DNA of 33,999 nt from Thermodesulfobacteriota bacterium. Its GTDB lineage: Bacteria > Desulfobacterota > Deferrisomatia > Deferrisomatales > JACRMM01. How positions within the stretch are numbered: the stretch's first letter is position 1; each line of letters starts with the position of its first letter. The stretch is taken from positions 1-33,999 of the forward strand of contig JBFLZB010000027.1 of assembly GCA_040756475.1 (NCBI GenBank), written 5' to 3'. A program made the translations under genes and the position numbers. The notes under the pieces are model-generated. The model was given only the letters and a program-made list of their open reading frames with translations. It made no database searches and was not told the DNA's origin. This document shows, piece by piece, positions 5,970 to 29,566 of the stretch.

Positions 5970-6096
5970 GAGAAAGAGATCCCCCGCTCGTGCCGTGTTC
6001 CTAAGGTTCGGTTGAACCTCGCGTGGAAAGGTGGGCGTCCTGTAACCGTTTCACGGGCTCCCCGGAGGGCATGCCATCCACGGATAGGGAGGACCC
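5970..6096 (-). ncRNA. ssrS: Candidate 6S RNA (RNA polymerase regulator)
   Basis: The 279-nt gap between zapA and rny, both minus strand, is where 6S RNA commonly lies beside zapA. Read on the minus strand, a 5' segment TCCCTATCCGTG (6078-6089) can pair with a 3' segment CACGAGCGGGGGA (5979-5991), closing a long imperfect stem. The 3' side carries a small hairpin GGTTC-AACC-GAACC (about 6005-6018), comparable with the small hairpin in the 3' strand of the E. coli 6S central bubble. The 5' strand has CCCTCCGGGGAGCC, comparable with the CCCUGAGCCG region of E. coli. 6S RNA mimics an open promoter and sequesters sigma-70 holoenzyme. Ends are approximate, and the element is shorter than the usual ~180 nt, so it may extend on either side. 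A separate hairpin (5915-5923 with 5931-5940) lies between it and rny. Confidence 0.55.
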
Positions 6097-6115
6097 CCAA
6101 CGTCATGCCGTTGGC

Positions 6116-6460
6116 TCAACAGCTTCCAGCGGAATCACGCGCACAGCAGGGGAATTCGGTCGTCTTCGCTGCAAACACCTCTGGAAGAAGGGTGTCGATG
6201 CGCCGGGCCAGGCCCGCGTGGCGTTCCTCCACTTCGGCCGTCCACGCCTGGGTGGAAACCCGCTCCTGGAGGAGCTCGCTGGCCAGGTCCATGGCGGCCA
6301 GCACCGCGATCTGCAGGGTGGAAACCGTGCGGGCGGCCGAGGCCACCTCGCGCATCTTCCGGTCCACCAGCTCGGCAACGCGCTTTACGTGCTCCCCCTC
6401 GACGTCGGCGCGCAGGGTGTAGCCCTGTCCGAAGATCTCCACCTGGTGAACCGTGCCCAT
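6116..6460 (-). CDS. zapA: Cell division protein ZapA
   Basis: A 114-aa ZapA-family protein that bundles FtsZ protofilaments at the division site. The N-terminal globular part reads VHQVEIFGQGYTLRADVEGE, then HVKRVAELVDRKMREVA; the C-terminal coiled coil includes LQIAVLAAMDLASELLQE. The start ATG at 6460 overlaps the stop of the upstream coiled-coil gene (TGATG), indicating translational coupling. The length is near the usual 90-110 aa, with a slightly extended cysteine-containing tail (CCARDSAGSC) of no known role. A 6S RNA candidate follows. Confidence 0.9.
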   Translation of the reverse strand: MGTVHQVEIFGQGYTLRADVEGEHVKRVAELVDRKMREVASAARTVSTLQIAVLAAMDLASELLQERVSTQAWTAEVEERHAGLARRIDTLLPEVFAAKTTEFPCCARDSAGSC

Positions 6461-28251: not shown

Positions 28252-28290
28252 CCCCGGAGGCTCCCCGCGCGGTGCGGGAGCCGGCCGGGG
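28252..28290 (+). promoter_or_regulatory. Strong hairpin in the 5' leader of the SlyD-like gene
   Basis: CCCCGG (28252-28257) pairs with CCGGGG (28285-28290) and, inside it, GGCTCCCCGC (28259-28268) pairs with GCGGGAGCC (28274-28282, one bulge). The stem ends 11 nt before the AAGGAG of the gene. It could stabilise the leader or hold back early transcription; it matches no riboswitch class I know. Confidence 0.5.
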
Positions 28291-28310
28291 TCTTTGCTCA
28301 AGGAGCCGAC

Positions 28311-28817
28311 ATGAAGGTGGAGAACCGCCGCTACGTTACGATCGAGTATTCCCTCTCCCTGGACTCGGGAGAGGTCGTGGATCAGTCGTCCCCCGGAGAG
28401 CCCATGGGCTTTCTCTTCGGTTCGGGGCAGATCATCTCGGGTCTGGAGAAGGGGCTCGAGGGGCTCGAGCCCGGGGCGGCCGCCCAGGTGACCGTCGAGC
28501 CCCGGGACGGGTACGGAGAGACCAACCCCGCCCTCCTGCGGGAGATCCCGAGGGAGAACTTCCCCAAGGACATGGAACTCCAGGCCGGCATGGGGTTCGA
28601 GGCCCGGGGTCCCCACGGGCCCGTCACCTTCCGCATCAAGGAGGTCCGCCCCCAGGACGTGCTCGCCGACTTCAACCACCCCCTCGCCGGGGAGCGACTG
28701 CATTTCGACGTGAAAGTCGCCGACGTGCGGGAGCCCCGGGCCGAGGAGCTCGCCGAGCTGCTCCGCGGAGGGTGCGACGAATCCGCCTGCGGCAGTTGCG
28801 GCGGCGGCTGCGGCTAG
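28311..28817 (+). CDS. FKBP-type peptidyl-prolyl isomerase, SlyD-like
   Basis: A 168-aa SlyD-type isomerase. ATG at 28311, AAGGAG 5 nt upstream. The split FKBP domain (YVTIEYSLSLDSGEVVDQS; FLFGSGQIISGLEKGLEGLE; later DFNHPLAGERLHFDVKVADV) surrounds an insert-in-flap chaperone domain (about residues 70-125, VEPRDGYGETNPALLREIPR). The C-terminal tail C-D-E-S-A-C-G-S-C-G-G-G-C-G has four cysteines, a short version of the metal-binding tail through which E. coli SlyD supplies Ni to hydrogenase. The enzyme is cytoplasmic and catalyses Xaa-Pro isomerisation with chaperone activity. It is followed by a perfect intrinsic terminator. Confidence 0.93.
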   Translation: MKVENRRYVTIEYSLSLDSGEVVDQSSPGEPMGFLFGSGQIISGLEKGLEGLEPGAAAQVTVEPRDGYGETNPALLREIPRENFPKDMELQAGMGFEARGPHGPVTFRIKEVRPQDVLADFNHPLAGERLHFDVKVADVREPRAEELAELLRGGCDESACGSCGGGCG

Positions 28818-28838: not shown

Positions 28839-28862
28839 AGAAGGGCCCCGCGGGGCCCTTCT
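28839..28862 (+). terminator. Intrinsic terminator after the SlyD-like gene
   Basis: AGAAGGGCCCCG directly followed by CGGGGCCCTTCT is a perfect 24-nt palindrome (28839-28862), followed by GTTGTTTC. It lies 21 nt after the stop codon. Its symmetry would let it act on both strands, giving a second stop for the minus-strand sRNA unit at 28912-28972. Confidence 0.8.
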
Positions 28863-28911: not shown

Positions 28912-28972
28912 CAAAAAAAGGCCCCGCTCCCAGGAGGATAGGAACGGGGCAAAGGGGGAACTTTCGTTCCGC
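28912..28972 (-). ncRNA. Candidate small RNA with anti-Shine-Dalgarno loop
   Basis: In a 314-nt gap between two plus-strand genes, the minus strand has a consensus promoter (28977-29005) whose predicted start (28970-28972) immediately precedes a hairpin GGAAC-GAAA-GTTCC (28970-28957) with a GNRA tetraloop. A short linker CCCTTT follows, then a 10-bp hairpin (28950-28941 with 28930-28921) and a run of seven T. The terminator loop reads TATCCTCCTG, containing TCCTCCT, complementary to Shine-Dalgarno AGGAGGA. No ORF fits. Promoter, 5' hairpin and terminator within 95 nt define a stand-alone transcript of about 60 nt. The anti-SD loop suggests base-pairing at ribosome-binding sites. Family unknown to me. 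Confidence 0.68.
28913..28950 (-). terminator. Intrinsic terminator of the candidate sRNA
   Basis: On the minus strand GCCCCGTTCC (28950-28941) pairs with GGAGCGGGGC (28930-28921), with one G-U wobble, around a 10-nt loop and is followed by CTTTTTTT. It is the clearest intrinsic terminator in the window. No protein-coding gene on the minus strand ends here. Confidence 0.85.
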
Positions 28973-28976
28973 TCGT

Positions 28977-29005
28977 ATGTTAGGTTCGATAGAGGAGTTT
29001 GTCAA
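28977..29005 (-). promoter_or_regulatory. Sigma-70 promoter of the candidate sRNA
   Basis: On the minus strand a perfect TTGACA (29005-29000) and TAACAT (28982-28977) are separated by exactly 17 nt. With the perfect -35 upstream of metY it is one of the two best promoter matches in the window. It faces away from the neighbouring plus-strand genes and has no ORF downstream other than the short RNA. Confidence 0.75.
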
Positions 29006-29131: not shown

Positions 29132-29562
29132 GTGGACGCGACTCCTGCCCTTCTCGGCTCGGTGCGCGTGGGTCTGCGCCGCGGCCTGTCCTCGGTGCTG
29201 ATCCTCGCCCGGGTCATGGTACCGGTCTACCTTGCTGTCGATCTGCTGCGGCACACACCGGTTCTCGACGCCGTGGCCGGCGCCCTGCATCCGCTCATGG
29301 CGCTCTTCGGGCTCCCGGGCGAGGCGGCGATGGTCCTGGTGGCCGGCGCTCTCATCAACCTGTACGCGGCCATCGGAGCCCTGGCCCCCCTGGGACTCGG
29401 GGGGCGGGAGGTGACGATCCTGGGGCTCATGCTGGGGCTTGCCCACGGCCTCATCCTGGAGACGGCCATCATGAGGCAGGTGAGCCAACGCTGGCTCCTG
29501 CTCGCGATGCTCCGGATGCTCCTCGCGATCGTGGCGGGCCTTGTCGTGCACCGGATACTGCC

Positions 29563-29566
<4 letters not shown>
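29132..29566 (+). CDS. Nucleoside-recognition (Gate) domain membrane protein, first of pair
   Basis: A 144-aa membrane protein with GTG start at 29132 and AGGAGG 4 nt upstream. Four hydrophobic segments are visible (around LSSVLILARVMVPVYLAVDL, PLMALFG, AAMVLVAGALINLYAAIGAL and VTILGLMLGLAHGLILETAI). The last two, with the N-L-Y-A-A-I-G-A-L and H-G-L-I-L-E-T-A pattern, are typical of Gate-domain proteins (SpmA/SpmB, nucleoside-transporter-gate family). Half-size tandem pairs of this type occur in anaerobic bacteria and their substrate is unknown. The stop overlaps the start of its partner (GTGA). Confidence 0.8.

Follow-up and report, generated by a model that had tools for sequence, protein, structure and literature searches.

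A predicted stand-alone small RNA gene with an anti-Shine-Dalgarno terminator loop, conserved among Deferrisomatales

Analysis of the window (the whole stretch of 33,999 nucleotides under study) revealed a candidate small RNA (sRNA) gene on the minus strand, situated between a slyD-like gene and a gene for a Gate-domain membrane protein, both on the plus strand. The features of the locus are given below. Handles beginning with G denote genomes, G000 being the window's own, and "the order" is Deferrisomatia/Deferrisomatales.

28272..28817, plus strand: SlyD-like FKBP peptidyl-prolyl isomerase, convergent neighbour (Pfam FKBP_C, 5e-14; same-place orthologs in G006 and G002)
28913..28972, minus strand: predicted sRNA of about 60 nt (fold z -5.2; covariance-model matches across the order)
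28913..28919, minus strand: T7 tract of the terminator (from the sequence)
28921..28950, minus strand: intrinsic terminator hairpin, 10-12 bp (terminator scan, fold, compensatory changes in relatives)
28932..28937, minus strand: CCTCCT loop, identical to the anti-Shine-Dalgarno (anti-SD) core at the 3′-end of this genome's 16S rRNA (fold; invariant in alignments)
28951..28956, minus strand: last part (CCCTTT) of the C-rich, single-stranded linker that joins the two hairpins, in the conserved run CCCC-N-UUUGCC
28957..28970, minus strand: 5′ hairpin GGAAC-GAAA-GTTCC (fold; kept in part of the orthologs only)
28977..28982, minus strand: -10 element TAACAT (TAnnnT), behind a 17-nt spacer (spacing kept in 7/7 orthologs, spacer sequence variable)
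29000..29005, minus strand: -35 element TTGACA (promoter scan; the same in 7/7 orthologs)
29132..29566, plus strand: Gate-domain membrane protein, divergent neighbour (Pfam Gate, 1e-7; same-place orthologs in G004, G008 and G010)

The minus strand between 28912 and 29005 read TTGACA-17 nt-TAACAT-ACGA-GCGGAACGAAAGTTCCCCCTTTGCCCCGTTCCTATCCTCCTGGGAGCGGGGCCTTTTTTT, and the promoter boxes, 5′ hairpin, linker, terminator and seven T of the preliminary description were all present where it had placed them. The promoter matched at 10 of 12 positions; scanning 3 kb gave two such matches, where shuffled sequence would give 0.1. Of five terminators detected (1.7 expected), this one had the longest stem. 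Judged by the distance to the -10 element, the RNA would start near 28970-28972. The absence of an ORF was also borne out, as the RNA contained neither an ATG nor a GTG start, and a small-protein reading of the locus was rejected on this ground. A bidirectional terminator was rejected because the plus strand lacks a T-tract. No family reached its gathering score at the RNA locus in an Rfam scan of the window. Elsewhere in the window, a 6S RNA gene was found on the minus strand at 5977-6155 (RF00013, 80.6 bits).

Folding of the 61-nt RNA gave -29.9 kcal/mol compared to -16.5 kcal/mol for shuffled sequences (z -5.2), and none of 200 shuffles folded as well. The stem and loop of the 10-bp terminator with an exposed loop, as originally described, were recovered, but the predicted minimum added two weak pairs (U-G and A-U) to the 10-bp stem, which left a 6-nt loop, UCCUCC. 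The predicted probability of being unpaired was 1.0 for CCUCC and only 0.15 for the last U of CCUCCU. The 3′-end of the 16S rRNA of this genome reads GGATCACCTCCTTTCT, so the loop copies the anti-SD core. A survey of 874 kb of the genome gave 80 loose terminator candidates, and no strong one other than the RNA locus had a CCTCC loop; two further matches in this genome, C56 and C110, had CCTCC loops without a TTGAC-type promoter.

A blast search with a 111-base query against 99 relatives returned one strong match (E 9.3e-14), in G006, a Deferrisomatales MAG (JAJRUI010000075.1, pattern search). A covariance model extended the RNA to seven genomes (G000, G001, G002, G004, G006, G008 and G010). 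G003 and G005 gave looser matches; in these two, a CCUCC-loop RNA lay at another location and lacked TTGACA. No match was obtained in G007, G009 or G011 in a phylum scan at E 0.05. Comparison of the orthologs showed that all seven genomes had an exact TTGACA-N17-TAnnnT with differing spacer sequence, and that all retained the C-rich linker and the loop CCUCCUGGG. The preliminary description had suggested a covariance search with both hairpins in related genomes. Conservation extended to the promoter, the C-rich linker and the CCUCC-loop terminator, but not to the 5′ hairpin, which was well formed in G000 and G006 only, at best a remnant (palindrome GGAACGTTCC) in G004, G008 and G010, and absent from G001 and G002.

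Compensating changes were seen in four of the ten terminator pairs within the order alone, and in a 21-sequence alignment, which had been fitted to the model's structure, 14 of 19 pairs showed two-sided changes. This covariation supports the predicted hairpins. CCTCCT was invariant in all 14 members of alignment A3, which came from the phylum scan with RF01733 described below, and in the 21 rows of alignment A5. The conservation rules out a chance origin of the elements of the locus. Additionally, the -35 box of five of the seven orthologs (L054, L057, L058, L059 and L061) overlapped an imperfect palindrome, TGACAyGGTCA, that is perhaps an operator; the window's copy did not have it.

The neighbourhood of the RNA was compared by tblastn. 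In G006 and G002 the RNA was adjoined by both the slyD-like gene and an aminotransferase gene, and in G001 by the aminotransferase gene; the Gate-domain gene was on its other side in G004, G008 and G010. The next gene was a convergent slyD in the window, G006 and G002 and a convergent dehydrogenase in G004, G008 and G010. All flanking genes were on the strand opposite to the RNA, with the exception of the downstream gene in G001, where the aminotransferase lay about 130 nt on along the RNA's own strand. A terminator-like site belonging to slyD itself was located at 28839-28862. Because its place beside the Gate and/or slyD-like gene is kept while these face the opposite way, the RNA appears to be an independent transcript; lying between the plus-strand slyD and Gate genes, it is therefore the leader of neither.

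The window RNA thus has its own promoter, its own terminator, no ORF and an exposed anti-SD seed, the sequence hallmarks of an anti-SD sRNA, and the stand-alone, terminated sRNA gene that had been proposed is supported by the seven-genome conservation, the neighbourhood and the covariation. We consider the best explanation, with a probability of about 0.72, to be a stand-alone Deferrisomatales sRNA whose loop would act in trans on SD sites and which would be kin to the atoC RNA motif (RF01733). A sigma-70-type promoter would give rise to an RNA of about 60 nt, with its 3′-end at the gene's own intrinsic terminator. The terminator loop CCUCC(U), in the same letters as the 16S anti-SD tail, would pair with SD sites in a group of mRNAs, blocking ribosome loading and so silencing them in trans. 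The C-rich linker may add contacts, and Hfq may help at the U-tail. We infer each of these steps, namely transcription, trans action, SD blocking and the help of Hfq, from sequence. An hfq gene was present in the window's own genome (E 8.8e-23) and in 10 of 12 genomes of the order; two genomes that carry the RNA, G006 (92% complete) and G008 (81% complete), gave no hfq match.

Genes with AGGAGG-type sites (ppcB, metY, the Gate-domain gene and the GHMP gene) had been put forward as examples of sites that the loop could pair with, but they carry no weight as evidence. The window holds 78 copies of AGGAGG where 37 would be expected, and a target list drawn from it was rejected, as a motif this frequent has no discriminating power. 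The suggested target prediction with the loop fared no better: matches of 8-10 nt in the window were mostly not before a plausible start codon. A 9-nt match was present at the SD of the Gate gene (CCAGGAGGA), but it was not kept in the orthologs of G004, G008 and G010 (GGAGGTTC, GGAGGTCC and GGAGGGTC), so the adjacent Gate gene is unsupported as a conserved target. An SD-complementary loop by itself gives no specificity. The terminator and the anti-SD seed are one hairpin, and target choice therefore needs something beyond SD complementarity.

The CCUCC loop could alternatively be a decoy, an SD or 16S mimic that binds a protein or the translation machinery and not specific mRNAs. The conserved core is indeed that of the 16S anti-SD, and besides the C-rich linker little else is kept; however, we know of no protein that reads a CCUCC motif in a hairpin loop. 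Moreover, the sRNAs known to have a loop of this kind target mRNAs (PMC10746234, PMC3927594), and we regard a decoy as much less likely than an sRNA acting on SD sites.

RF01733 bears on a further alternative. In a permissive Rfam scan it was the best match of both the window (27.2 bits, E 0.006) and G006 (28.9 bits, E 0.002), scores that are below its gathering score of 50 bits. Scanning 395 genomes of the phylum found classical members in about a dozen genomes, in addition to G006 and G000. An order-only model (R3) found the classical sites of G159, G035 and G342 at E 0.004-0.007 and did not rank them above other CCUCC-loop terminators. We do not claim membership of RF01733, given the sub-gathering scores and the recovery by R3 of only these three classical sites amid other CCUCC-loop terminators. 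The motif was entered by Weinberg et al. 2010 as RNA "y" and cis-reg "y" (PMC2864571). The classical members each ended in a terminator of their own, in which the loop CCUCCU was invariant, and most of those examined were not in front of an atoC gene. Behind the motif in G287, G072 and G361 was an AtoC-like protein with an iron-hydrogenase-like domain by Pfam and a sigma-54-activator-type part recognised by eye from the sequence, which probably explains the motif's name. Behind it in G159, G035 and G206 was folK, and convergent to it were an Rrf2 gene (G342, G324 and G133) or a LysR gene (G268 and G306). Because of the members' own terminator, their changing neighbours and the convergent orientation in several families, a family of stand-alone sRNAs whose terminator loop carries the anti-SD motif is a better reading of RF01733 than a cis-element.

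By the listing of RF01733, the window RNA would act in cis, as the leader or attenuator of the gene behind it. The same-strand aminotransferase of G001 would suit such a role, as would the AtoC-like sigma-54 activator behind one group of the wider motif and folK behind another, but the next gene is convergent in the window, G006, G002, G004, G008 and G010, classical members are convergent to Rrf2 or LysR genes, and a full terminator closes the RNA, for which no alternative structure was seen; we therefore judge a leader improbable. Least probable of all is a mere terminator with a chance loop, serving a neighbour gene or some unseen transcript of the minus strand: the terminator is strong, and C/T-rich-loop terminators resembling mRNA ends exist elsewhere (the second matches of G004, G008 and G010), but no minus-strand gene was recognised directly upstream, the promoter is kept just upstream of the hairpins in 7/7 orthologs, the loop stays invariant on a changing stem, and slyD is provided with a terminator of its own.

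Elsewhere in the phylum, families f62, f85 and f100 and genome G001 each contained several RNA-like elements whose terminator loops were of the CUCC type, and their multiple occurrence per genome suggests sibling sRNAs. G324 and G342 (L052, L107, L109, L110 and L114) contained multi-copy sibling RNAs, several per genome, with a GATCGCCGAGAGGCGGTC-like 5′ part and the terminator loop ACACCCCCTCC. Two near-identical elements of G001, L180 and L181, read GCGTTGTTCCC-CTCTTGAAGCGG-CTCACTCCTCCTGT-..-CCGCTTC-T6/7 with conserved upstream sequence and are probably a further duplicated CCUCC-loop sRNA. At L066, L067 and L069 (G008, G010 and G004 respectively), a terminator with a TTCCTCCTCCC-type loop lay directly behind an apparent coding-region end (...GGSTGCFLQTLSRP), and may be an mRNA terminator or a 3′UTR-derived sRNA. 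In G004, a GGAAC..GTTCCCCCTTTGCCCCGG-like stretch was located between sucC and sucD (L003, 1483-1546), with a blast E of 3.3e-5 and only 11.9 bits with model R1. A pattern match in Candidatus Onthomonas avicola was judged a probable chance match.

A literature search turned up no described sRNA for the bacterial group of the Deferrisomatales, to which the present locus would add an order-wide, largely syntenic sRNA gene with a clear seed. Its design is compact, the terminator and the anti-SD seed being in one hairpin. The results also give reasons to move RF01733 from the cis-regulators to the stand-alone sRNAs. The window RNA and the atoC RNA both have two hairpins, of which the second is a terminator with a U-tail and a CCUCC(U) loop, and a -10-like promoter box close to the 5′-end of the region covered by the model; both come from one bacterial lineage, the delta-proteobacteria as formerly defined. 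The window RNA and its orthologs differ in their sub-gathering score, in a first hairpin that is short or absent, in the C-rich linker and in the gene context, which in the window is slyD and Gate on the opposite strand with no atoC behind. The two have a common architecture and probably a shared ancestry, although common descent is not proven.

Pseudomon-1/ErsA, anti-hemB and sX13 gave weak Rfam matches at the same place in the window and G006, and are likewise short with C-rich loops; they are from gamma- or beta-proteobacteria and the matches were far below gathering scores, so the likeness is probably one of plan only. The closest parallel in action would be the cuckoo RNAs of the Rhizobiales. 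NfeR1 and its relatives silence ntrB at the translation start by anti-SD loops (PMC10746234, PMC3927594), reporter assays showed that rhizobial sRNAs with such loops silence mRNAs at the SD, an action demonstrated in trans for NfeR1, and NfeR1 is Hfq-independent (PMC10746234). The cuckoo RNAs/alpha-r14 (NfeR1, SmelA075 and SmelA099) and the window RNA alike carry an anti-SD motif in an unpaired loop on stems that vary. The former belong to another phylum and have three or four hairpins, each with CCUCCUCCC, whereas the window RNA has one CCUCC loop and no Rfam match to cuckoo or alpha-r14. Tentatively, and at somewhat less than even odds, RF01733 and the Deferrisomatales RNA may be two branches of a single class of trans-acting sRNAs that spans the phylum, with the seed in the terminator loop and sibling genes in f62, f85, f100 and G001, a counterpart of the alphaproteobacterial cuckoo RNAs.
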